Under the pieces are notes generated by a model. The model searched no databases. It was not told the origin of the DNA and saw only the letters and a list, made by a program, of their open reading frames with translations. Source: Arenibacter sp. ARW7G5Y1 (GTDB taxonomy: Bacteria > Bacteroidota > Bacteroidia > Flavobacteriales > Flavobacteriaceae). From it: a DNA stretch of 64,000 nt. Location: the NCBI RefSeq assembly GCF_003201775.1, contig NZ_QJJZ01000004.1:216643-280642 (forward strand), given 5' to 3'. Below, one piece after another: positions 50,745 to 64,000 of the stretch (position 1 is the stretch's first letter; each line of letters opens with the position of its first letter). The translations under genes were made by a program, and so were the position numbers.

Positions 50745-51149
50745 TATATACTTTTTTAATTTCCTAAGACCTAAGGCCTATCATTTGATAGGCTTTTTTT
50801 TGTTCGTGAGACCCGTATTTCAAAAGCCGCGGGCGCATTGGAATACGATAGTCGAACGAACCCCGCCAAAAGGCAGGGTCTTTTGTTCTAATATCCAGAT
50901 CGTTGGTTGGATTCCTTATAGGAAGCAAGTATTCGGTTAAGGTTTTAATACCAATTATTATGAAGTGAAGTTGTAAATTAACGTTTCCCCATGTGATAGG
51001 TGAAGTATTATTTTTGGACCATAGCTGGGCCAAGTTTTTATTCTCTATCTTGGTTTAAGAAACATTAATTGGTATTAGGGGTAAAGGAAAAGGCCAACCT
51101 AATATTAATGCCATTGGTTTCCATCCTTAACTTAAATTCTATAGTTCCT
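50745..51149. other. Intergenic region with hairpin repeat
   Basis: After the csp terminator there is another hairpin at about 50860-50881 (ACCCCGCC-AAAA-GGCAGGGT, fully paired with one wobble on the minus strand), similar in composition to the palindromes after tmRNA. No gene; a minus-strand frame here is rejected. Confidence 0.5.
50775..50801 (+). terminator. Terminator of the cold-shock gene
   Basis: GCCTATCA-TT-TGATAGGC followed by eight T. Confidence 0.9.
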
Positions 51150-51866
51150 ATGTTTGAATATTTGGATAAAATAAAATTGCTGATAGACAAAATGGCCATA
51201 GACCAGCAGGATCAATTGATCACTGCCTCAAAAATGGTAGCGGAGGTTATTAAGAACGATGGAATAATTCACACTATTGGTACAGGTCATTCCCAAATGA
51301 TAGGCATGGAAATGTTCGGTAGAGCGTCCAATCTGGCCAATGTAAATGCCATTATGGATGACATGGTACTTATGTCCAGTGGGGCAAGGAGATCGGCCGC
51401 AATGGAGCAAATAGGTGGTCTTGCCGAAATTCTTTGGAACAAATATCAATTTAACAAAGGAGATGTATTGATCGTTGTATCGAACTCCGGTAGAAATGCA
51501 TTGCCATTGGAAATGGCCATGAAGGCCAAGAAGGAAGGTTTAAGGACTATAGCGATCACTTCTTTGGAACAATCAGGAAAGTATGCTTCTAGGCATGAAA
51601 GTGGAAAGAAACTGTATCAGATTGCAGATTTGGTTATTGATAATTGTGTTCCGTCAGGGGACGGGGTTATTTCCATTAAAGATCTACTGATCGGTCCGGC
51701 TTCATCCGTACTTGGGATGATCATTGTAAACATAATTTCAACCGAAGCCATAAAGATTAATTTGGACAGGGGAGTGGATGTCGCTGTATTTCAAAGTCAG
51801 AACATAGATGAGGCGGACAACGAAGCACTTTATCAAAAATATGAATCCCGGGCAAAACATCTTTAG
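51150..51866 (+). CDS. SIS-domain phosphosugar-binding protein (COG4821 / UPF0309-like)
   Basis: A 238-residue protein. The N-terminal helices (MFEYLDKIKLLIDKMAIDQQ) precede a SIS domain: GIIHTIGTGHSQMIGMEMFG, VLIVVSNSGRNALPLEMAM, and TIAITSLEQSGKYASRHESG. SIS proteins bind phosphosugars and act as isomerases, etherases or regulators. I start at 51150; longer in-frame options lack homology to the family. It is convergent, 12 bp apart, with the Nramp-like gene, and next to a PFK-A-type kinase and a KDPG-type aldolase. An aldose-ketose isomerase acting before that kinase is a reasonable idea but not shown. Confidence 0.85.
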   Translation: MFEYLDKIKLLIDKMAIDQQDQLITASKMVAEVIKNDGIIHTIGTGHSQMIGMEMFGRASNLANVNAIMDDMVLMSSGARRSAAMEQIGGLAEILWNKYQFNKGDVLIVVSNSGRNALPLEMAMKAKKEGLRTIAITSLEQSGKYASRHESGKKLYQIADLVIDNCVPSGDGVISIKDLLIGPASSVLGMIIVNIISTEAIKINLDRGVDVAVFQSQNIDEADNEALYQKYESRAKHL

Positions 51867-51878
51867 TACCCATTTGGG

Positions 51879-53156
51879 TTATCTAAAGAAGTCCAAAAGA
51901 GCTACGATTCCATTGTAAGAAATGATAATTGAAAAAATTAAGGCGGCATATAATCCTATATTTAGGAATTTACTTGCTTTGTGTTGCCCCATCAGCTTTT
52001 TATTGTTGATCAGTAAAATAATTCCAAGTATTACCAAGGGCAGGACAAATACGTTAAATACCTGGGATAAAATCTGCATTTCTATAGGGTTGGCACCAAA
52101 AATGGGCACAATAAGTGCAAACAGACATGCAATGGCCGTAATTATCTTAAATTGTTTGGAAGTGGTATCCAATTCCCCGGATTGATAATCGGCCAAAAGA
52201 ATGGGAGCTATCAATAAACAGGGGAATATAGAAGATAATCCTGCACTTAAAGTTCCAAAGAAGAAAAGGGTCAAGGCGAATTTTCCGGCCACCGGTTCTA
52301 AGGTGTTCACCATATCCAAAACTTTGGTCACCGGCTGGCCTTGGTGAAACAAAGCTCCACTAGCTACGGCCATTACCGATGCACTAATTACAAAGACCAG
52401 ACAGGCGGCTATTATGGAATCTTTTTTTTGCTGCTTTAGATGATTGATATTCCAGCCTTTGCCCTTTACGAATAAAGGTCGCGATAAGAAAGTAGCGGCG
52501 GCCATGGTGGTGCCTACAAAGGCGGCCACCATCATTTTACCCCCTTCCACCTTTGGTATGGACGGTATTAACCCTTTAGCGACCTCTATAGGCAAGGGGT
52601 AGACCATAAAAAGTGAGATAAAAAAGGATAGTCCCATAATGGTGACGAAAATGACCAATATTTTTTCAAAGAAGGCATACTTTCCTACTAGGAGGAATCC
52701 ATACATGATTATAATGACCACAATGGCAATTAATAGAACAGACTCATATTGATAGCCCTTCAAATTGGGAAAATAGATAAGGAATATCTCAAATATAATG
52801 TTGGCTGAAATCCCTAGTATGCCCATAAGGGAATTCCATTGTCCAAATGAAATACCAATAATTATCATTAGGGCAATAAACTTCCCCCATCTTAGATGCT
52901 TTTTAAAAGCAAATAAGGCTGTTTCTCCCGTAACCAGGGCGTAATTACCATAGGAGAACATTAAGATTCCAGAGAAAATGCAACTCAGCATTAAAACCCA
53001 TAACAATTGCATACCGTAGGTACTTCCTGCAACGATCATGGAGGTTACACTTCCTGTGCCAATAGTGTACCCAATGGCAAATATGCCTGGGCCAAAGGCC
53101 AATACCAGAGCCAAAATCTTTTTTAGAATTGATTTTTTAGTGGTCCGGATTTCCAT
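51879..53156 (-). CDS. Nramp-fold transporter lacking the metal-binding motifs
   Basis: A 425-residue integral membrane protein with about 11 helices. It clearly follows the Nramp pattern: GPGIFAIGYTIGTGS, then GMQLLWVLMLSC and YALVTGETALFAFKK. In canonical Nramp, helix 1 has DPGN and helix 6 has MPH, which hold Mn/Fe. Here the aligned positions read GTGS (about residues 32-35) and AAA (within VGTTMAAATFLSRP), so the Asp, Asn, Met and His metal ligands are all gone. It starts 3 bp after the KDPG-type aldolase gene in one operon with a PFK homologue. Metal transport by the known mechanism is unlikely. A non-metal, perhaps carbohydrate-linked, substrate is suggested by context only. Confidence 0.85.
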   Translation of the reverse strand: MEIRTTKKSILKKILALVLAFGPGIFAIGYTIGTGSVTSMIVAGSTYGMQLLWVLMLSCIFSGILMFSYGNYALVTGETALFAFKKHLRWGKFIALMIIIGISFGQWNSLMGILGISANIIFEIFLIYFPNLKGYQYESVLLIAIVVIIIMYGFLLVGKYAFFEKILVIFVTIMGLSFFISLFMVYPLPIEVAKGLIPSIPKVEGGKMMVAAFVGTTMAAATFLSRPLFVKGKGWNINHLKQQKKDSIIAACLVFVISASVMAVASGALFHQGQPVTKVLDMVNTLEPVAGKFALTLFFFGTLSAGLSSIFPCLLIAPILLADYQSGELDTTSKQFKIITAIACLFALIVPIFGANPIEMQILSQVFNVFVLPLVILGIILLINNKKLMGQHKASKFLNIGLYAALIFSIIISYNGIVALLDFFR

Positions 53157-53159
53157 ATT

Positions 53160-53828
53160 TTATTTTCTTAGTTTTCTAATGGACACCAAAGTTTCTCGAA
53201 CGGTATATTCCAATCCTATAAAATCTTTGTTGTCTAATATTTCCTTACTGATAAGTTGGGAGCCCAGCCCTACACAGGTTACACCAGCATCGAACCACGC
53301 TTTTAAATTGGAAGCATCCGTAGTAACTCCTCCTGTGGGCATGATACTTGTCCAAGGTTGTGGGCCTTTTATAGCCTTTACAAAAGAGGGGCCATAGGTA
53401 GCGCCGGGAAACAATTTTACGATTTCGCAACCCAATTCCTCGGCCTTGTTAATTTCGGTAAGGGAACCACATCCAGGGGACCAAAGGACCTTTCTTCTAT
53501 TACAGGCAATCGCAATATCTTCCCTTAGGGACGGGGTTACAATAAAGTTAGCTCCCATTTTCATATATAGTGATGCCGCTGCAGCATCGGTTATGGAACC
53601 AACTCCCATCATCATTCCAGGAAGTTCTGTGATGGCAAATTTGTTAAGTGCCGAAAATACTTCGAAAGCGAAGTCGCCCCTAGCGGTAAATTCCATTAAT
53701 TTAGCGCCCCCGTCGTAGCAAGCTTGCAACACTTTTTTGCCAAGTGCTATATCTGGATTGTAGAATAAGGGGACCATTCCGGTTTCCTTCATTGCTGTTG
53801 CTACTTCTATTCTTGAATATTGTGCCAT
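53160..53828 (-). CDS. KDPG/KHG-type aldolase
   Basis: A 222-residue class I aldolase: Glu46 in KLMEFTARG, a GVGSITDAAAA turn, SPGCGSLTEI and Schiff-base Lys138 in EIVKLFPGATYGP, then IMPTGGVTTD. The catalytic Glu and Lys are present. Members cleave 2-keto-3-deoxy-6-phosphogluconate to pyruvate and glyceraldehyde-3-phosphate, or 4-hydroxy-2-oxoglutarate. FTARG replaces the more usual phosphate-side motif of E. coli Eda, so another 2-keto-3-deoxy acid is possible. Gaps of 6 bp to the PFK gene and 3 bp to the Nramp-like gene show a tight operon. Confidence 0.92.
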   Translation of the reverse strand: MAQYSRIEVATAMKETGMVPLFYNPDIALGKKVLQACYDGGAKLMEFTARGDFAFEVFSALNKFAITELPGMMMGVGSITDAAAASLYMKMGANFIVTPSLREDIAIACNRRKVLWSPGCGSLTEINKAEELGCEIVKLFPGATYGPSFVKAIKGPQPWTSIMPTGGVTTDASNLKAWFDAGVTCVGLGSQLISKEILDNKDFIGLEYTVRETLVSIRKLRK

Positions 53829-53834
53829 TCTTTG

Positions 53835-55058
53835 TTACCCTTTGTTTAATATTTTGTTGAAATCATAGTCCGATGGATTGTCCAAATAAGGACTTGCCCG
53901 TTCATAATCCTTTTCTTCCAAATAGTGTAGATTTTGAAAACAAAGTCGGATAAATTCGGAATCGATATCAACCAATCGCGGAGCTATTTTTCCATCTTTG
54001 TCCTGTAGGTCCGTCAAAAAAAGAGGTGATACCTCTCCCCTCGAATTGGCGGTAACAATGCATCCACTTAGGCCTTCATCGTATAATTTTTTGACTCCCA
54101 AACCCAACAGGGTGCATAGGGTTAGGTCAAATCCAATGGGTCGGCAACACCTGAGCTCGTAGCCTAGCTCAACGGGTCTACTTTTAATGTGTATATCCAG
54201 TTCTTTCAATTGCCGTTGCACCAGCATATTAAAAATATGGGACTTGCTAACATTGCCCAATTCAGGATGACCGTGGTCATCGTAGGTGAAATTTATACCA
54301 CAATGCTTGATTTCAGATTCTGGCATTATATGGAAAACACCTTCGCTAATGAGGGCTACACCATAATTTATATTTTCAATTTTTCTTTTGACCATCGAGG
54401 AGATAATCAGTCGGACTACCTTATCAAAGGTAATGCTGGTCTTGTTGAACATTTCAGGAATAACCATCATTGGAAAATGGCAGCTTGCCGCGATGCCTAG
54501 GGCCAAATGCCCTGCCGACCTTCCCATGGTGGACATTACAAACCAGTTTTCACTGGTACGTGCGTCTTCATAAGTAGTTGTGCCAATTCGCACTCCCTCG
54601 TCCTTTGCTGAATGAAAACCAAAAGTGGGATTCCTATCCGGTAAAGGCAGGTCATTGTCAATGGTCTTGGGAACATGAATGTTCGATATTGGAATGTTTT
54701 CTTTCTTTAAATAGCCCGTAATTCTATTGGCAGTTGAGGCAGTGTCGTCACCACCTATACTCACCAATAGTTTTACATTGTTTTTGGAAAAAAGGGTAGT
54801 GTTCAATTTTTCATTGCCAGGTTTGAACCTACTCATGATCAAAGTGGATCCACCTCGGCTAAAGATTCGATCTGCATGGGGGAAATCGAATTCTTTAATT
54901 TTGGGATGCTCTGAAAAGATTCCTTTAAAACCTTCATGTAGTCCAATTACCCTATATCCGTCTTTTAAAAAGATTTTGGCCACAGTGCCGATAACAGCAT
55001 TGATACCGGGCGCAGGACCTCCTCCGCATATGATTAATATGGATTTTTTTTTGGTCAT
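53835..55058 (-). CDS. Phosphofructokinase-A family kinase with PPi-type signatures
   Basis: A 407-residue PfkA-fold protein. It starts MTKKKSILIICGGGPAPGIN. The two diagnostic motifs are GGDDT (102-106; ATP enzymes have GGDGS) and PKTIDND (130-136; ATP enzymes have PGTIDND). The aspartate and lysine at these sites are the known hallmark of PPi-dependent enzymes. MGRSAGHLALG and ISEGVF are also present. A longer start at 55109 would add a cysteine-rich tail with no homology, so I reject it. It is the first gene of the operon with the KDPG-type aldolase and Nramp-like transporter. It could phosphorylate fructose-6-phosphate, another ketose phosphate, or even a keto-deoxy acid. Confidence 0.9.
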   Translation of the reverse strand: MTKKKSILIICGGGPAPGINAVIGTVAKIFLKDGYRVIGLHEGFKGIFSEHPKIKEFDFPHADRIFSRGGSTLIMSRFKPGNEKLNTTLFSKNNVKLLVSIGGDDTASTANRITGYLKKENIPISNIHVPKTIDNDLPLPDRNPTFGFHSAKDEGVRIGTTTYEDARTSENWFVMSTMGRSAGHLALGIAASCHFPMMVIPEMFNKTSITFDKVVRLIISSMVKRKIENINYGVALISEGVFHIMPESEIKHCGINFTYDDHGHPELGNVSKSHIFNMLVQRQLKELDIHIKSRPVELGYELRCCRPIGFDLTLCTLLGLGVKKLYDEGLSGCIVTANSRGEVSPLFLTDLQDKDGKIAPRLVDIDSEFIRLCFQNLHYLEEKDYERASPYLDNPSDYDFNKILNKG

Positions 55059-55369
55059 TTCGATCTTTTTTAGAACAGCGCTACAATTACAGGGACATTT
55101 TGACCCCATAATTTTTCAAAATTGAGACTACCCTTTTTAATGTGTATAATGATTAAGTGTTGGCCAAGTGCCCGCAAACTTTAATGACTTCAATTGGATT
55201 CCAGTAAAGAAAGAAGTCCCGCTGAAAGCCTGGTACAACCTTAAAACCACAACTGCCGTAGTGCCTTCTTAACTTTTTGAAAGTGTTCCGGCAGTTGCTT
55301 TAATTTCAACTCATAATCTATGAATAGTTATCATGGTATTTATAGACGATAAGCCTTGTTGCCGTTCCA
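55059..55369. other. Intergenic region upstream of PFK operon
   Basis: About 310 bp. No gene. I searched for the TTGGTNNACCAA box and found none; an imperfect TTGGCCAA-like core near 55162 is weak. Confidence 0.45.
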
Positions 55370-56134
55370 TTAAATACCTAAGCCCTGTCCTCCACCAATT
55401 TGGATGGTTTCGGCTGTAATGAAAGCGGCATCTTTACCAGCTAAAAATGAAATTACGGATGCTACCTCTTCAGGTTGTCCTAATCTTCCCAATAAAATAT
55501 TGTTTTTCCAAGAAGCAAAAACTTCGGGCTTGGTAGATTTAATTTCGGTATGGAAAGGAGTATCAATGGTTCCTGGTGATACCGCATTTACTCTAATTCC
55601 ATATTCGGCAAGGTCTTTGGCCAACGCCCTGGTAATGGCATGAACACCTGCTTTGGATGTTCCATAAATCCCTGCTCCGGGTCCACCGGCATTCCAACCC
55701 GCAATGGATGTATAATTAATGATGGTAGGTAGATCTCCTTTTTTTAGATAAGGTATGGCAGCTCTTGAAGCAAAGAATACAGAATCCAAGTTCAAGGCCA
55801 TTACAAATCTGTAAAAATCCGTTGTCATTTCTTCAAACCTGGACCTACCTCCGAGTCCACCTGCATTGTTCACTAGGACATCAATTTTACCGTATTTCTT
55901 ACCAATTTTATTAATGTTGGCTGTTACTTCGTCTTCCTTTGTAACATCAAATCCGTAATACTCGGCAGTGATACCTTCTGCCGTAAGCTCTTTAATTCTT
56001 TTGGCCCCTCCTTCATCATCTATACCGTTCAATACTACTGTGTATCCGTCCTTGCCCAATCTTTTTGCTACTTCGAAACCAATGCCCCCTGTGGCTCCGG
56101 TTATTACTGCTACTTTTCCCTTTGAATTACTCAT
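55370..56134 (-). CDS. Short-chain dehydrogenase/reductase (uronate-type candidate)
   Basis: A 254-residue classical SDR: TGATGGIG cofactor loop (13-20), VLVNNAGGLGG, and active site NYTSIAG ... YGTSKAGV. It ends ETIQIGGGQGLGI. It lies 29 bp after the MFS transporter gene on the same strand, so it is probably cotranscribed. In alginate loci of marine flavobacteria, an SDR reduces the unsaturated uronate DEH to 2-keto-3-deoxygluconate. That role fits this neighbourhood but cannot be proved from sequence. Confidence 0.88.
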   Translation of the reverse strand: MSNSKGKVAVITGATGGIGFEVAKRLGKDGYTVVLNGIDDEGGAKRIKELTAEGITAEYYGFDVTKEDEVTANINKIGKKYGKIDVLVNNAGGLGGRSRFEEMTTDFYRFVMALNLDSVFFASRAAIPYLKKGDLPTIINYTSIAGWNAGGPGAGIYGTSKAGVHAITRALAKDLAEYGIRVNAVSPGTIDTPFHTEIKSTKPEVFASWKNNILLGRLGQPEEVASVISFLAGKDAAFITAETIQIGGGQGLGI

Positions 56135-56163: not shown

Positions 56164-57447
56164 TTATTCTACTGACTTTATATTATTTGCGAAATAATAG
56201 ATAGATCCTACTCCAAGAGGTACAAAAATGGCTATGGCCACAAAAATGGGGGTATATGAAACTTTCGCGATAACTGGCACCAAAAAGTTCATGACAATAA
56301 CTGAAAACACGCCTACCATACCACCTAAACCGGCCAATGACCCTACAGATTTACCGCTAAAAAAGTCGCTGGGCAGGGTTTGGATATTTCCAATGGCAAA
56401 TTGAAATCCGAACAAGACAATAAATACGATCGCAACAAATTTTTCAGGCGTATCCGCAAATAAAATGGTTGCAATAAGGCCTAGGGCCATAATGACCCCG
56501 CCTATGAAAATGGTAGTTTTCCTACCTTTATCAATTGAATTTGTTCTGGAAATTATAACTCCAGAAACGTAGCCGCCTGCAATACTCCCTATGGCCGCAC
56601 CTACATAAGGAACCCAAGCGAACATTCCAACCTCTTTTACATTAAAGCCATACACGTCAAATAGATATATGGGCATCCAACCTACGAATAGCCACCAGAT
56701 AGGTTCCAGGAAAAATCTACTTGCAACGATGGCCCAGGATTCTTTATAGGAAAGTATCTCTTTAAGACTTAATCCTTTTTGATCCTCAGTAGCATTTTGA
56801 TCGGCCAAACTTTGTCCTTCGGAAATATATTTTTGTTCTTCCTCTGTTATCCAAGGATGTTTTTTAGGTCCTGCCTTATTAATTATAAGCCAAGGAATAA
56901 TCCATAAAAGCCCAATGGCCCCCACTATTATAAAGGTAACTTCCCAACCATAGGCCACAAATAGGAGGGCTATTAGGGGTGGGGCTATAACCGATCCAAT
57001 GGAGGCACCGGCATTGAACAACCCTTGGGCAATGGCACGTTCTTTTATGGGAAACCATTCTGCATTACTTTTTACGGCACCAGGCCAGTTTCCTGCTTCT
57101 GACAATCCTAAAGTAGTTCTGAAAAAGGCCAATGATAAAAACCCTCTCACCGTGGAGTGCAATAAGGTGGATAGACTCCAAATACCTATGCTGATTACAT
57201 ATCCAATTCTGGTACCTACCTTATCGAACAGTTTGCCCGAAAATAATTGCCCCAAGGCATAAGCTACCATAAAAATGTTGAGGATGTAGCTATAGTGATC
57301 TTTGGTCAGGCCCAAGGAGTGGGATATGGAACCTTCAACATTTTCATTGCCCCACATAATGGACAAAGCACTTCTGTCTATATAATTAATAACAGTTGCT
57401 AAAAAGATAAGACCGATAATGAACCAACGTAATCCTTTAATTTTCAT
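56164..57447 (-). CDS. MFS transporter, anion:cation symporter family (hexuronate-like)
   Basis: A 427-residue 12-helix major facilitator. It shows ACS-family features: INYIDRSALSIMWGNENVEG, the loop GKLFDKVGTRIGY, RTTLGLSEAGNWPGAVKSNA, EWFPIKERAIAQGLFNAGAS. The helix-4 segment with EAGNWPG is typical of ExuT/GudP-like transporters of hexuronates and sugar acids. It imports a uronate or similar acid by proton symport. It is followed by the SDR and preceded by the GntR/FCD regulator 232 bp away. Confidence 0.92.
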   Translation of the reverse strand: MKIKGLRWFIIGLIFLATVINYIDRSALSIMWGNENVEGSISHSLGLTKDHYSYILNIFMVAYALGQLFSGKLFDKVGTRIGYVISIGIWSLSTLLHSTVRGFLSLAFFRTTLGLSEAGNWPGAVKSNAEWFPIKERAIAQGLFNAGASIGSVIAPPLIALLFVAYGWEVTFIIVGAIGLLWIIPWLIINKAGPKKHPWITEEEQKYISEGQSLADQNATEDQKGLSLKEILSYKESWAIVASRFFLEPIWWLFVGWMPIYLFDVYGFNVKEVGMFAWVPYVGAAIGSIAGGYVSGVIISRTNSIDKGRKTTIFIGGVIMALGLIATILFADTPEKFVAIVFIVLFGFQFAIGNIQTLPSDFFSGKSVGSLAGLGGMVGVFSVIVMNFLVPVIAKVSYTPIFVAIAIFVPLGVGSIYYFANNIKSVE

Positions 57448-57679: not shown

Positions 57680-58387
57680 TTAGTTTTTAATATTATAACA
57701 ATATTGATAGAGCATTTTAAAATGTACTTTCATTTTTTCCTTGGCCAATTGGGGGTCCTGCTTCTTTATGGCCTCATATATATCCCTATGTTCTTGTATA
57801 CCGATAAATGCAATATTCTTATCACATACATGATATTTGGTGAAATTGGTAATGATTTCCGGAGTTATGGTCAACATAAATGTGTTGATGGTACTGTTGC
57901 CACATGCCTTGGCAATTGCCAAGTGGAACAACAGATCTTCCTGTACGGCATTTTCCCCATTTTCCACCTTGGCAGAGTAGGCGTCCAAAGCCTCTTCAAT
58001 TTGTTTTAAATCTTCATCGGTCCTCCTCAATGAGGCCAGCTTAACTGTCTTTAACTCCAATAATATCCTTGTTTCCACCAAAGATTTGAAATCTGCTTTT
58101 TCCAGTCTCAAAATATCGGTGATCATACCATTCATTGCCACGGGGCCAATATCGGCAATAAACGTACCGCTCTGTGGCTTTGATATTAGCAGTCCGTAAA
58201 ATTCCAAGGTCTGTATAGCCTCCCTTACATTGCTTCTGCTCACTTCAAATTTTTCAGAAAGCTTTCTTTCCGAGGGCAACTTGTCTCCTGGTTCCAAGTT
58301 TTTATAATTAATAAAATCCCGGATTTTGGATATAATATCTTTCTGTATTACGTCGTTTTCGTTTTTAGGGAGAATGTCTATTTTCAT
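57680..58387 (-). CDS. GntR-family regulator with FCD domain (FadR/UxuR type)
   Basis: A 235-residue protein starting MKIDILPKNENDVIQKDI. The winged helix is at about 12-75 (DKLPSERKLSEKFEVSRSNV, REAIQTLEFYGLL). The all-helical FCD ligand domain is at about 85-230, with the metal-binding histidines in FHLAIAKACGN and EHRDIYEAI. FCD members bind sugar acids; UxuR and ExuR recognise TTGGT-ACCAA palindromes. Two such boxes in tandem lie 22-46 bp ahead of the start (58409-58433), which implies autoregulation. The same boxes lie before susC. I prefer the start at 58387 because the longer form would overlap the boxes. Confidence 0.92.
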   Translation of the reverse strand: MKIDILPKNENDVIQKDIISKIRDFINYKNLEPGDKLPSERKLSEKFEVSRSNVREAIQTLEFYGLLISKPQSGTFIADIGPVAMNGMITDILRLEKADFKSLVETRILLELKTVKLASLRRTDEDLKQIEEALDAYSAKVENGENAVQEDLLFHLAIAKACGNSTINTFMLTITPEIITNFTKYHVCDKNIAFIGIQEHRDIYEAIKKQDPQLAKEKMKVHFKMLYQYCYNIKN

Positions 58388-58408
58388 TTCTATTTTATAA
58401 GTTCTAAA

Positions 58409-58433
58409 TTGGTTAACCAAATTGGTTGATCAA
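58409..58433. promoter_or_regulatory. Tandem TTGGTNNACCAA boxes before the gntR gene
   Basis: TTGGTTAACCAA (58409-58420, perfect palindrome) and TTGGTTGATCAA (58422-58433, imperfect), period 13 bp. Same design as at 63436-63473. Confidence 0.75.
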
Positions 58434-58594: not shown

Positions 58595-59929
58595 TTAGTA
58601 ACCTTCATTTTGTGTTATAACCCCATCGCTTGCAAGAATTTCCGAGTTTGGTATAGGAAACACATTATAGTCACTGCTGATCGTTTCTCCCATTTCTATA
58701 TTTACGGTACCCGTTCTCACCAAATCGAACCATCTATGTCCTTCAAGGGCCAACTCCACTCTTCTTTCGTCTGCTATTGCCTGTCTAACGTCGGCTTGCG
58801 AGCTTACGGTTCCGGTTAAACTATTTAAACCTGCCCTCGTGCGTATTGGATCCAATAATGGAAGTACAGTTGTTGCAGCAACGTTATTTTCGTTCAGTGC
58901 CTCAGCGTACATTAGAATTACATCGGACAATCTAAGGTCTATATAGTCTTGATCCAGGGCCCCGGTATATTTATTACTACCATTCATATTTTCCGTGTCA
59001 ATGGTAAGCGCCTTTCTTAAATCCGTACCTCCACCGGCGGCACTACTGGCGTCAAAGGCGTCAATTAAGCGAGGATCCAAGGGCGTGAGCGATTTTGTAT
59101 CGGCCCCGCTAAACCATCCTACAAAGGTGGTGGCAGATCCGTATGCGTTTGGAACCGAGGTTGATAATGGGGTAGCAAAAATGATTTCTGAATTACCATC
59201 CACTACCACGTTGGCAAAGTTGCTTTCCAAAGTAATCCCTGCAGCCGCTGCACTATTAACAACAGCTCCAAGCGTTGTTGCAGCTTCGGTAAAATTACCT
59301 CTATATAGGTATACTTTTCCGAGAAAAGCCTGAGCTGCTATTTTGGATGCGCGCCCACTGGTCAATCCAGAGTTATCCAATCCAGCTATAGCGTCTTGAA
59401 AGTCGGGAATGATTACATTATTGTACACATCTGCAGCTGGTTGCCTTGTTAAAATGGACAAATCGGATGGACTGGGGGCAGGGGATAAATTGACGGTGAC
59501 ATCACCAAAAACCATTACCAATTTGAAGTAGGACAAGGCCCTAAGAAATTTTGCCTCGGCTATCTCAGTGGCATCAGTTGAATTATCAATGACATTGTTG
59601 GTACTTAAGATCGCCTTGTATAAATTGCTATAGAAAGGTCTAAAGAATTGCTCTACCAAATCCAAACCACCCAAATCTGCATTGTATGTGTCAAATGCCG
59701 TATACGGGCTTTCCAGCATCAACATATTGTCGGCCCTGAAGTCGCCCATCACCCCTAGTGGTGTTGAACCACCGGATTGATAGTAATACGCTGCATTTAA
59801 AACGGGTCCAAATTCCTCCAAAGCACTGGATTCAAGTAATAAGGGCGGCGTTTGGTCCAAATCGTTGTCACAGGCTGTTATCAACAACACGGACACTATT
59901 GCTAGATATATAGTTTTCATTTTTTTCAT
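58595..59929 (-). CDS. susD: SusD/RagB-family glycan-binding lipoprotein
   Basis: A 444-residue lipoprotein (signal ending LLITAC, cysteine 20) with SusD-like helices and TPR-like units: YKAILSTNNVIDNSTDATEI, AKFLRALSYFKLVMVFGDV, GRASKIAAQAFLGKVYLYRG. The C-terminal family motif is RRVELALEGHRWFDLVRTG. It binds glycan at the cell surface and forms the lid of the SusC transporter. The gene starts 10 bp after susC. The ligand is not determinable, but linked genes point to uronate-containing glycans. Confidence 0.95.
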   Translation of the reverse strand: MKKMKTIYLAIVSVLLITACDNDLDQTPPLLLESSALEEFGPVLNAAYYYQSGGSTPLGVMGDFRADNMLMLESPYTAFDTYNADLGGLDLVEQFFRPFYSNLYKAILSTNNVIDNSTDATEIAEAKFLRALSYFKLVMVFGDVTVNLSPAPSPSDLSILTRQPAADVYNNVIIPDFQDAIAGLDNSGLTSGRASKIAAQAFLGKVYLYRGNFTEAATTLGAVVNSAAAAGITLESNFANVVVDGNSEIIFATPLSTSVPNAYGSATTFVGWFSGADTKSLTPLDPRLIDAFDASSAAGGGTDLRKALTIDTENMNGSNKYTGALDQDYIDLRLSDVILMYAEALNENNVAATTVLPLLDPIRTRAGLNSLTGTVSSQADVRQAIADERRVELALEGHRWFDLVRTGTVNIEMGETISSDYNVFPIPNSEILASDGVITQNEGY

Positions 59930-59939
59930 GATTTCTTAA

Positions 59940-62900
59940 TTAAAAATTTACATTTATACCCAAGGTAAAACTTCTTACTATAGGGCTTGCACCTTCCTGG
60001 TATCCGTAGGTGGTTGGACCCGCATAACCGGAATTTTCAATCTCTACACCTTCAGGGTTGAACGAGGTATAATTATCTGCCATTATATACAACAAATTGG
60101 TAGCTGCCAGGTAAATTCTCATAGAACTTAAGCCTATTTTATCGGTTAAATCCGAATTAAGGGTATATCCTAAAGTAAGGTTTCTCAAGGCTGCAAACGA
60201 GGCATCTTGGATCCCTGAACCATGTGCATTCCTGGTCTCCTGATAAAACTTGCCACTGGCATCGGCAATACCGTCATCATTGGCATCAAAACTGGATTTT
60301 AATCTCCCGCCAAATTGTGATTTCCAGTAAATTGGATCGATATTGTAAAGTTCTGCTCCCTGTGACCCTTGGAATTGGAAGGAGAAATCAAAATTCCTGA
60401 TGTTCATTGAACTTGAAAGTCCCCAATAAAAATCAGGTGTTGCGGATCCCAACTTTACATAATCTTCCTCATAGGTAATTTCACCATCACCGTTTTGGTC
60501 TACAACATACCATTCCCCGCTACCGTATCCAACGCCTCTGGAGGGATCTGACATATGTATCGTTTCAACCTCACCAGTTACTTCATACCCCCACATTTCA
60601 CCAATTTCACCTCCTACATAGTTTCTAAACTCTGGACCTCTACCACTTGGACCACCGTAAATTTGCCTGGGCAGTTCGGTCAGTTCCCCTAGACTGGTAA
60701 TTTCCGATTTGGCAGTTGATACATTGGCATTGATATTCCAAGAGAAGTTTTCATTGGAAACTATTTTTGTATTAAGTTCAATTTCCAAACCGGAACTGGT
60801 TACATCACCACGATTAAGTTTTATGGCAGGAGTTCCAAGAACTTCTGAAACACTTTGATTGATCAACATATCTTTTACATCAGAGGTATAATAGTCTACA
60901 CTCAATCTGATACGGTTATTTATAAACCCTGTATCAAGACCATAGTTGGTCTCTTTATTGGTTTGCCACGTTAAATCCGGGTTTGCGATATCCTCAGGAA
61001 TTAGAAAACCTGTGCCATAAGCGGTGGGTGAGGTACCCAAAATGCTTAATGAATTATATGAACCCAAGAATGAAGCTGTTCCCAAAGAACCAGTACTAAA
61101 CCTCAGTTTAAATAGGCTAAACGTATCACGATCTCCGAAGAAAGATTCATTGTGAATATTCCAGCCTAAGGATAGTGCTGGGAAAACTGCGTATTTTTCA
61201 TTGGCTCCAAATCGTGAATCACCGTCCCTCCTAATGGATGCCGAGAGTAGATAACGATCATCAAATGCATAGGCTATTCTTCCAAAAAATCCATTTCTTG
61301 ATTGGGTTTCATCAATCTCATTGGTTATAACATCTGCAGGGTCGAAAAAATCATAATTTAAAGGCAGGCCAAATGGTACATTTGTTCCATTGTTTACAAT
61401 TCCCTTGTAATAGGTATTTACAAACTCCATTCCAGCAACGGCAGAGATGTCGTGCTTCTCTGCAAGTACTTTTGCATAACTCAGGGTAGTTGTACTTAAT
61501 ACGGTGGATTTTTTAATATTGGATATGTCCAACTCTGTTTGATTGGAACGTTGTTGACCATCCGATAATATTCCATGGTATTCGTAGGTCTGTGTGTCTT
61601 CCAGATCTGCTCCAAAAACTGTTTTTATATTCAGCCCATTTATAATTTCATATTGCAAATAAGAACTTACATTTCCAAAATAGGTCTTTTTCCATCTTCT
61701 GGAATTGTCAAACTTAGCGGCAACACCTGCATCTCCTGTTCCTCCAATACCGTTTTGATTTCGGCCGTATTGCCAATCGTGGACTACATCACCGGGTTGC
61801 AGGTCATAGATACTTGTAGGGTCCAGACCGATACCTCTATAATCCTGGTCAAACGATCTACCTATGTTATTTCCAGTAAATCCAGAATCGAATAAGGCCT
61901 GTCTATTACGATCCAATTGCTGAACGAAATCAATTGAGGCTTGCGTATGGTATATAGGACTAATGCTATATGATCTTAAAAGATCCCTCATTTCCCAAGG
62001 AACAATATCTTGTTTTCCATAATAACCATTCATGCTCAACCCGGCCTTTAACTTGGAACCCAAGTTGGCATCTAGGTTCATACGTCCGTTATACCTTTCA
62101 TAGCCTTGCCCTTTTACGATACCATCGGTTTTTAAGTAACCAATTGAAGCAAAGGCCTTTAGGTTTTCGGACCCGCCGCTCACACTGAAATCATGATTGG
62201 TTGTACTACCATTTTTGAAAAGCCAGTCTTCTATACTTACCACATCGGGCGCATTGGCGTATGCATCCAGTCTGTAAGCCAATAACCCTGGGTCGGTTTC
62301 GGAAAGATCATAAGCACTGGTCTGTAACTCTTTGGCCCATTCTCCTGCTGTCTTAAGCATTTCGATGTCCTTCACATACTTGCTTGAGGTACTTGCATAG
62401 GAATTATAACTAAAATTAACTTTGCCCGATTTTCCTTTTTTGGTAGTTACCAGAATAACACCGTTGGCACCTAAAGAACCATAAATAGCGGCAGAAGCTG
62501 CATCTTTTAATACCTCTAGACTTTCTATATCGTTGGGGTTAACGGTGGCCAAATTGCCTGAAATTGGATAACCATCCACAACAATTAGTGGTCCCGAATC
62601 ACCGGAAACAGAAGAGGCCGCCCTTATTTGGATTTTTGGATCCGCACCAGGTTCTCCACTTTGATTTTGAATCCTCACTCCAGATAACTTACCTGCCAAA
62701 GCATCATCCACACGGGCAACTTGAACAGCAGCAACTTCATCTCCACCTACTTTTGCCACCGCTCCGGTTAGGTGCGATTTTTTAATGGTACCATATCCAA
62801 CTACCACTACCTCATCAAGTTGACTTGCGTCTTCTTGCAGGGTGATATTTAATTGTTCTTGATTTGTAATAGTTATGGATTGGGTAACATATCCCAAAGA

Positions 62901-63122
62901 TGAAAATTGTAATACGTCCCCATTTTTTATCATAATTTGATAATTTCCATCAAAGTCGGTTGCCGTTCCAGTGGTAGTATTGGCAATAATTACGTTCACT
63001 CCGGGCACTGGGACCATGGCAGCATCGGTTACCGTTCCGGACAGCGTACGACCATCTTGGGCGAACAGTGCAATATTGAATAACAATACTACTGTTAGAA
63101 TTAAATTAGTTTTGAATTTCAT
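59940..63122 (-). CDS. susC: SusC/RagA-family TonB-dependent transporter
   Basis: A 1060-residue outer-membrane protein: signal peptide 1-22 (MKFKTNLILTVVLLFNIALF), carboxypeptidase-like regulatory domain about 26-105 (LSGTVTDAAMVPVPGVNVII), TonB box region DEVVVVGYGTIKKSHLTGAV, plug about 118-235, and barrel ending SPIVRSFTLGINVNF. It is full length for SusC. It imports oligosaccharides captured with SusD, powered by TonB. Upstream, three tandem FCD-type operator boxes and a TATATTTG promoter element lie about 315-355 bp from the start. The leader contains two hairpins or an opposing small RNA. Confidence 0.96.
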   Translation of the reverse strand: MKFKTNLILTVVLLFNIALFAQDGRTLSGTVTDAAMVPVPGVNVIIANTTTGTATDFDGNYQIMIKNGDVLQFSSLGYVTQSITITNQEQLNITLQEDASQLDEVVVVGYGTIKKSHLTGAVAKVGGDEVAAVQVARVDDALAGKLSGVRIQNQSGEPGADPKIQIRAASSVSGDSGPLIVVDGYPISGNLATVNPNDIESLEVLKDAASAAIYGSLGANGVILVTTKKGKSGKVNFSYNSYASTSSKYVKDIEMLKTAGEWAKELQTSAYDLSETDPGLLAYRLDAYANAPDVVSIEDWLFKNGSTTNHDFSVSGGSENLKAFASIGYLKTDGIVKGQGYERYNGRMNLDANLGSKLKAGLSMNGYYGKQDIVPWEMRDLLRSYSISPIYHTQASIDFVQQLDRNRQALFDSGFTGNNIGRSFDQDYRGIGLDPTSIYDLQPGDVVHDWQYGRNQNGIGGTGDAGVAAKFDNSRRWKKTYFGNVSSYLQYEIINGLNIKTVFGADLEDTQTYEYHGILSDGQQRSNQTELDISNIKKSTVLSTTTLSYAKVLAEKHDISAVAGMEFVNTYYKGIVNNGTNVPFGLPLNYDFFDPADVITNEIDETQSRNGFFGRIAYAFDDRYLLSASIRRDGDSRFGANEKYAVFPALSLGWNIHNESFFGDRDTFSLFKLRFSTGSLGTASFLGSYNSLSILGTSPTAYGTGFLIPEDIANPDLTWQTNKETNYGLDTGFINNRIRLSVDYYTSDVKDMLINQSVSEVLGTPAIKLNRGDVTSSGLEIELNTKIVSNENFSWNINANVSTAKSEITSLGELTELPRQIYGGPSGRGPEFRNYVGGEIGEMWGYEVTGEVETIHMSDPSRGVGYGSGEWYVVDQNGDGEITYEEDYVKLGSATPDFYWGLSSSMNIRNFDFSFQFQGSQGAELYNIDPIYWKSQFGGRLKSSFDANDDGIADASGKFYQETRNAHGSGIQDASFAALRNLTLGYTLNSDLTDKIGLSSMRIYLAATNLLYIMADNYTSFNPEGVEIENSGYAGPTTYGYQEGASPIVRSFTLGINVNF

Positions 63123-63585: not shown

Positions 63586-64000
63586 TTAAGAAAAGGCGAG
63601 TCCACCGTTAATATCGATGTTGGCCCCTGTAATAAAGGAAGTTTCTGAAGATGCAAGGCAAGCCACGGTATTGGCAATTTCCTCTGCCGATCCTTCCCTT
63701 CGAAGTGGGGTCATTCCTGCTACTTTCTCCCTTACGTCATCGGTAGTGAAGGTATCATGAAAGGTGGTGGCGATCATACCGGGACAAAGAGCATTTACCC
63801 GAATGTTTTTCGGGCCTACCTCTTTGGCCAGTCCCCTTGTAAAGGTCATGATGGCCCCTTTGGAGGTTGCATAGGCTATGGATCCTCCGCCTCCGCCATC
63901 CCTACCGGCCTGGGAGGCTATATTTACGATGGAGGCCCCAGATTTCATATGGGGCAACACTGCTTGTGTTACCAAGAAGGTAGAATTAAGATTTAACTTA
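63586..64000 (-). CDS. Short-chain dehydrogenase/reductase (partial, runs off right edge)
   Basis: The open frame continues to the window edge (138 residues visible), so the N-terminus with the cofactor loop is missing. Visible parts are [20 protein letters not shown], the active site IVNIASQAG and [20 protein letters not shown], then [19 protein letters not shown], ending [15 protein letters not shown]. This is a typical SDR C-terminal half. It is the second SDR in the island and probably acts on a sugar acid intermediate. The TTG at 63975 is internal, not the real start. Confidence 0.9.

Follow-up and report, generated by a model that had tools for sequence, protein, structure and literature searches.

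The gene at 51879..53156 on the minus strand of the 64,000-nucleotide stretch of Arenibacter sp. ARW7G5Y1 analysed here (the window; contig NZ_QJJZ01000004.1) encodes a GTGS-type Nramp-related transporter of 425 amino acids, with an ATG start and the Nramp/LeuT fold. From its genomic context and its site residues, the product is probably an inner-membrane secondary carrier whose substrate is an alginate-derived sugar acid: 4-deoxy-L-erythro-5-hexoseulose uronate (DEH), 2-keto-3-deoxygluconate (KDG) or an aldonate. The Nramp profile PF01566 matched the product with 220.6 bits (gathering score 29.8) over profile positions 1-356 of 357, and the structure model showed the Nramp fold with a pLDDT of 81.7; by this score and the Nramp/LeuT fold the protein is a member of PF01566 in the wide sense. 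The GPG, YG-x2-LLW and VTG elements were all present in its sequence. The NCBIfam model "Nramp family divalent metal transporter" scored 79.4 bits (cut-off 50), so that automatic annotation would label the product a divalent metal transporter, as the first-pass annotation of this DNA had expected. The nearest named relatives found were from Arenibacter, with up to 95% identity.

The site residues were compared in a MAFFT alignment with the solved metal carriers DraNramp, BfraNramp and EleNRMT, which contained 61 rows of the clade, two of them copies of others. The GTGS (33-36) aligned on the DPGN of helix 1, and the AAA (219-221) on M230-P231-H232 of helix 6, in agreement with the first-pass reading of the Nramp pattern. 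Both the DPGN and the Met-Pro-His of canonical Nramp/MntH were missing across the 61 clade rows, one of which was gapped at DPGN. GTGS was found in the other 60, which places the motif beyond chance, and the three MPH columns contained Ala in all 61 rows, Ala in 52 and Ser in nine, and Ala in 56 and Pro in five, respectively. Relative to canonical Nramp, the clade thus has Gly for Asp, Ser for Asn and Ala for Met. In addition to these substitutions, Arg226 occupied the column of DraNramp His237, the second His of helix 6, in 61/61 clade rows; the same Arg was present in all GH20-type (15/15), NagA/B-type (10/10) and UxuA-type (6/6) rows, and the PxpT type had His in 20/20. In helix 3, Leu stood at the D131 column of DraNramp in 61/61 rows, and neither FGQWNSLMGILG nor the GQWNSLMG stretch of the commonest rows contained an acid, with a MAFFT gap at E134 that makes this column unsure. 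Judged by these residues, a site that lacks acids and has a base nearby would be better suited to an anion than to a divalent cation.

The transporter gene is the last of a series of genes read in the same direction on the minus strand. Its ATG at 53156 follows by 3 bp the end, at 53160, of a KHG/KDPG aldolase gene (53160..53828; PRK07114 equivalog, 362 bits, cut-off 275), and 6 bp ahead of the aldolase ends a phosphofructokinase (PFK) homologue (53835..55109), so the ORF coordinates bear out the earlier placing of the gene behind the aldolase in an operon with a PFK homologue. The latter is probably dependent on pyrophosphate (PPi): its best match, NF041103, scored 334.3 bits, below the cut-off of 550, and it contains PKTIDND and GGDDT, which we take to be of the PPi type. 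Upstream lie a short-chain dehydrogenase/reductase (SDR; 55370..56134; at least 81% identity in the clade loci that have it), a transporter of the major facilitator superfamily (MFS; 56164..57447; D-galactonate/hexuronate-like, TIGR00893 262.7 bits, below the cut-off of 395), a GntR/FCD regulator (57680..58420) and a SusD-like outer-membrane lipoprotein (58595..59929), both identified by profile matches, a SusC-like TonB-dependent receptor with TonB plug and carboxypeptidase-regulatory-like domains (59940..63122), and a second SDR truncated by the window end (63586..63999). By analogy with papers on alginate loci, the first SDR is a probable DEH reductase, and DehR is presumably the right name for such genes in the clade loci. 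Beyond the window end (locus L075), the remainder of the second SDR is followed upstream, in the same direction, by genes for a KdgF-like cupin, a protein of 684 residues in which two PL7 domains were recognised, and a PL6-type protein of 785 residues. Three of the names used here are our assumptions: KdgF-like, for which Pfam gives Cupin_2 alone, PL6 for a protein with Pfam Chondroitinas_B, and PL17 for Pfam Hepar_II_III_C with Alginate_lyase. The order of the source locus is PL6-type, tandem PL7, KdgF-like cupin, SDR, SusC, SusD, GntR, MFS, SDR, PFK, aldolase and Nramp, and a relative of KDG kinase (C8, 59% identity) was encoded elsewhere in the genome. With the definition of such loci taken from PMC12323373, the operon is part of an alginate utilisation locus that extends beyond the window end. 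This locus was missed by the first-pass annotation, as were prior descriptions of non-canonical Nramp relatives.

The link between the transporter and sugar-acid genes was conserved in other genomes. A scan of genome contigs yielded 35 loci; a family search of 199 genomes, one per genus, found 24 carriers with at least 59% identity; a phylum sample of 395 genomes gave four additional carriers (54-82% identity); and 369 genomes from the class of Gilvimarinus yielded a Gilvimarinus carrier besides two genomes with the UxuA sister type. BLAST comparison with marker proteins was used to score the surroundings of 61 clade members, of which 59 were left once copies had been removed. At least one alginate or sugar-acid marker was found within 8 kb in 52/59 distinct loci when the DehR-type SDR was counted as a marker, and in 50/61 loci when the SDR was excluded; an alginate lyase or KdgF-like gene lay within 8 kb in 24/59. 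The same markers were found within 8 kb of none of 20 control loci with a 5-oxoproline (PxpT-like) Nramp. Within this distance of the clade Nramp were an aldolase (28/59), a KDG kinase (23/59), a gluconokinase-like/6-phosphogluconate dehydrogenase (6PGD) gene (14/59) and an MFS transporter (29/59), and the immediately upstream gene was the aldolase in 26/59 loci and the gluconokinase-like/6PGD gene in 10/59. The expectation set beforehand for the neighbours therefore stood for sugar genes in general and not for two of the genes named: PFK was detected in 14/59 loci, and an SIS gene, among the scored loci, in the nine Arenibacter loci only. In the window, the SIS-domain protein (51069-51866) is encoded on the plus strand, convergent with the transporter operon.

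PL7 lyases were encoded by 23/24 carriers (the miss being G011) and by 26/175 non-carriers in the 199 genomes, one per genus (Fisher p 1.6e-15, uncorrected for kinship), and in 19/24 carriers a PL7 gene lay on the same contig at most 15 kb from the Nramp gene. The sugar-acid theme also persists in divergent members of the clade. The neighbours of one (L124) were 2-keto-3-deoxy-galactonokinase, a KDPG-family aldolase and a gene of the SMP-30/gluconolactonase family; two others (L064 and L066) had a neighbour of the MR_MLE dehydratase superfamily; and the Gilvimarinus locus (L062) contained a PL6-type lyase, an SDR, the Nramp gene, a small kinase and PL7.

Two further features of these loci were observed. 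A gluconokinase-like/6PGD gene, mostly fused, was located near the Nramp gene inside the alginate loci L089, L091, L140, L142 and L175-L180, and was undetected in L174; gluconokinase is our presumed name for a gene with Pfam SKI. In Maribacter algarum (L051 6695-9269), two tandem Nramp-related genes followed the aldolase gene, with identities of 36% (to the sister type) and 82% (to the query).

The clade belongs to a wider branch of GTGS proteins. The tree, which did not include the E. coli relative or B. subtilis YcsG, was built from 85 of the 121 rows in the alignment. On one side of a branch with support 98/100 stood the GTGS proteins, with 58 rows, and the clade of the 51879..53156 protein was a single group (support 100/100). 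Since the tree was unrooted and had long branches, we make no claim about the deeper order. In the UxuA-type sister clade, 4/6 loci (L181, L182, L184 and L185) adjoined mannonate dehydratase UxuA, two of them with glucuronate isomerase UxaC. In another GTGS group, 9/10 loci (e.g. L073, L078-L080, L082, L083, L187 and L188) adjoined genes that we take to be NagA/NagB-like from Pfam Amidohydro_1 and Glucosamine_iso, the latter also covering 6-phosphogluconolactonase; L073 is the copy of this type within the source genome. GH20 genes adjoined the four GH20-labelled loci with scanned proteins, one of which also had GH2; this group, labelled by best BLAST hit, was not one clade in the tree. An E. 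coli relative with 38% identity, in whose sequence GTGS and the Arg can be read, was located between qorA and dnaB, with LacI, CoA-transferase, enoyl-CoA hydratase and FAD oxidoreductase genes as neighbours. It was found in 546/5,426 E. coli genomes and bore the RefSeq name "Nramp family divalent metal transporter" in eight of the eight matches listed; examples are L243 7025-8254 (NZ_AP018784.2) and a frameshifted copy at L242 6001-7238 (CP054241.1). The source genome (5.73 Mb) encoded five Nramp-family proteins above the Pfam cut-off, none of which reads DPGN/MPH, and a sixth, weak Nramp match that by reading resembles a sodium:solute symporter.

Comparison with known systems showed how the clade differs from characterised Nramp proteins. 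Its identity to the canonical carriers DraNramp and BfraNramp was 18-22%, and it is without their DPGN and MPH. The signature of the NRMT Mg carriers is given as DxxG-TxxA/T, with Asp55 and Glu133 kept in EleNRMT (PMC8806188); the clade shares the T and A of helix 6 but is missing the helix-1 Asp and shows no helix-3 Glu in its commonest rows, and in the alignment the 51879..53156 protein did not carry this signature. PxpT and YcsG (MntG) resemble the clade in the Nramp fold, the lack of DPGN/MPH and an operon for carboxylate use. The PxpT type in these genomes, however, had GPGT, VPY with His and, in the rows displayed, an acid in helix 3, in contrast to the GTGS and AAA with Arg of the clade, and formed a clade separate from the GTGS clade (group support 100/98). 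The source genome also encodes a PxpT-like type (C3). The ORFs that follow the Nramp gene in the control loci agreed with pxpA, pxpB and pxpC in size and order in 19/20 (the exception being L152). Five control loci were scanned with Pfam and all gave LamB_YcsF, and CT_C_D with CT_A_B was confirmed in one; the control type is therefore likely the counterpart of PxpT/YcsG. None of LamB_YcsF, CT_C_D and CT_A_B matched any of the eight query-locus proteins scanned. C. glutamicum PxpT, of the Nramp family, is described as needed for growth on 5-oxoproline (PMC13274462), and this is a precedent that supports an organic acid as the substrate here.

The first-pass annotation had proposed a subfamily that moved to a non-metal substrate, possibly a sugar acid, after its metal motifs were erased. 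A defined subfamily with usual sugar-acid neighbours, likely mis-annotated, was recovered, but the loss of motifs is not supported by a published rooted tree, in which Nramp-related proteins are paraphyletic and lie outside the canonical metal transporters (PMC12873925); hence the metal motif was probably never present in the clade. That paper also describes Nramp-related G-motif groups with Gly at the helix-1 Asp position and without canonical motifs, a likeness to the clade by motif, and calls the non-canonical groups other than NRMT-like and MntG / G-motif 3 entirely uncharacterised. An Nramp gene in an alginate locus has been labelled a metal-ion transporter in the alginolytic systems of Alteromonas sp. 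76-1, a likeness taken from a figure legend (PMC6431674). The word Nramp did not occur in the main text of papers on Maribacter, Flagellimonas and gut alginate loci, and no report of a sugar-acid reading of such proteins was found in the open-licence literature searched.

Several points weigh against a sugar-acid carrier. The marker proteins were chosen from the very neighbourhoods that were scored, nine of the 59 loci were from Arenibacter, and kinship among genera remains in the tests. No marker was found within 8 kb in 7/59 clade loci (L047, L061, L067, L070, L088, L126 and L143). The DraNramp His237 aligned with Arg226 is not among the DPGN/MPH metal ligands, and two other GTGS groups have NagA/NagB-like or GH20 neighbours, which suggests neutral or amino sugars as their substrates, so that Arg226 does not prove the substrate to be an acid. 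The operon in the window already encodes an MFS carrier, and the same MFS was found in 15/20 PL7 loci fetched from genomes without the Nramp (20 of 26 such genomes). With many alginate loci having the MFS and no clade Nramp, the Nramp protein is not required for alginate use. In the literature, the PxpT authors leave metal transport possible, and B. subtilis YcsG, a non-canonical Nramp, is a reported Mn importer (PMC10448178). These two published claims on the nearest characterised type, Mn importer and 5-oxoproline carrier, conflict, and the case of the GTGS clade is cleaner.

Alginate binds Ca and Mg and kinases need Mg, and the protein might instead carry Mg, Mn or Ca, as a hydrated ion like EleNRMT, to supply or remove metal during alginate use. 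We regard this as unlikely, because EleNRMT retains its helix-1 Asp and helix-3 Glu where the clade has Gly in 60/60 readable rows and the acid-free helix-3 stretch in the commonest rows, an invariant Arg has been added near the site, and the neighbours shift with the pathway (KDG, gluconate-type, galactonate-type, mannonate), which metal need leaves unexplained. Still less probable is that the protein transports not the uronate-derived acid but something else that the locus yields, for example a neutral sugar, an amino sugar or a side product for export; this would agree with the NagA/NagB-like, GH20 and GH2 genes that adjoin other GTGS groups and with an MFS that may already handle DEH, but NagA/NagB matches were found in 0/61 clade loci, and the theme these share is sugar acids. 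That 26/49 PL7-bearing genomes are without the clade Nramp could mean that the gene is a hitch-hiker in the operon by chance, with no alginate role. This is very improbable given that the site residues and gene order are kept across genera and that the gene turns up again in loci of different make-up, as well as in Gilvimarinus.

For a sugar-acid carrier, a route through the locus can be proposed. SusCD would import oligomers, from which the lyases and KdgF would yield DEH, and the Nramp-fold carrier would move the monomer across the inner membrane, alongside or in place of the MFS carrier. The SDR, a KDG kinase (C8 in the source genome and, in relatives, the PfkB neighbour) and the KDPG aldolase would then lead to pyruvate and glyceraldehyde phosphate, and the PPi-dependent PFK may serve the return route to hexose. 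The anion could be held by the conserved Arg226, the helix-3 Gln-Trp-Asn-Ser stretch and Thr216/Thr217, in a helix 1/6 site without Asp, Asn and Met. The fold model, the residues, the make-up of the locus and the conservation of the link were observed directly; the substrate, the direction, the coupling ion (proton or sodium), the role of Arg226 and the roles of the enzymes are inferred. Since the window locus has an MFS and other alginate loci have the MFS alone, the Nramp protein may serve for a second acid (KDG or an aldonate, for example), and the gluconokinase-like/6PGD neighbours agree with this.

It is possible, if somewhat doubtful, that the whole GTGS branch (the alginate, mannonate, NagA/NagB-like, GH20 and E. 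coli CoA-transferase types) and the 5-oxoproline type carry organic substrates, mostly anions, and that metal transport by canonical Nramps arose afterwards, on a fold whose original cargo was small organic molecules such as other LeuT-fold families carry. Genes of the GTGS kind receive the name divalent metal transporter from their match to the family profile. If the clade does carry sugar acids, it would constitute an unrecognised uptake route in alginate-degrading marine bacteria, and the origin of metal transport in the Nramp family, whether metal or organic substrate came first, would become testable.
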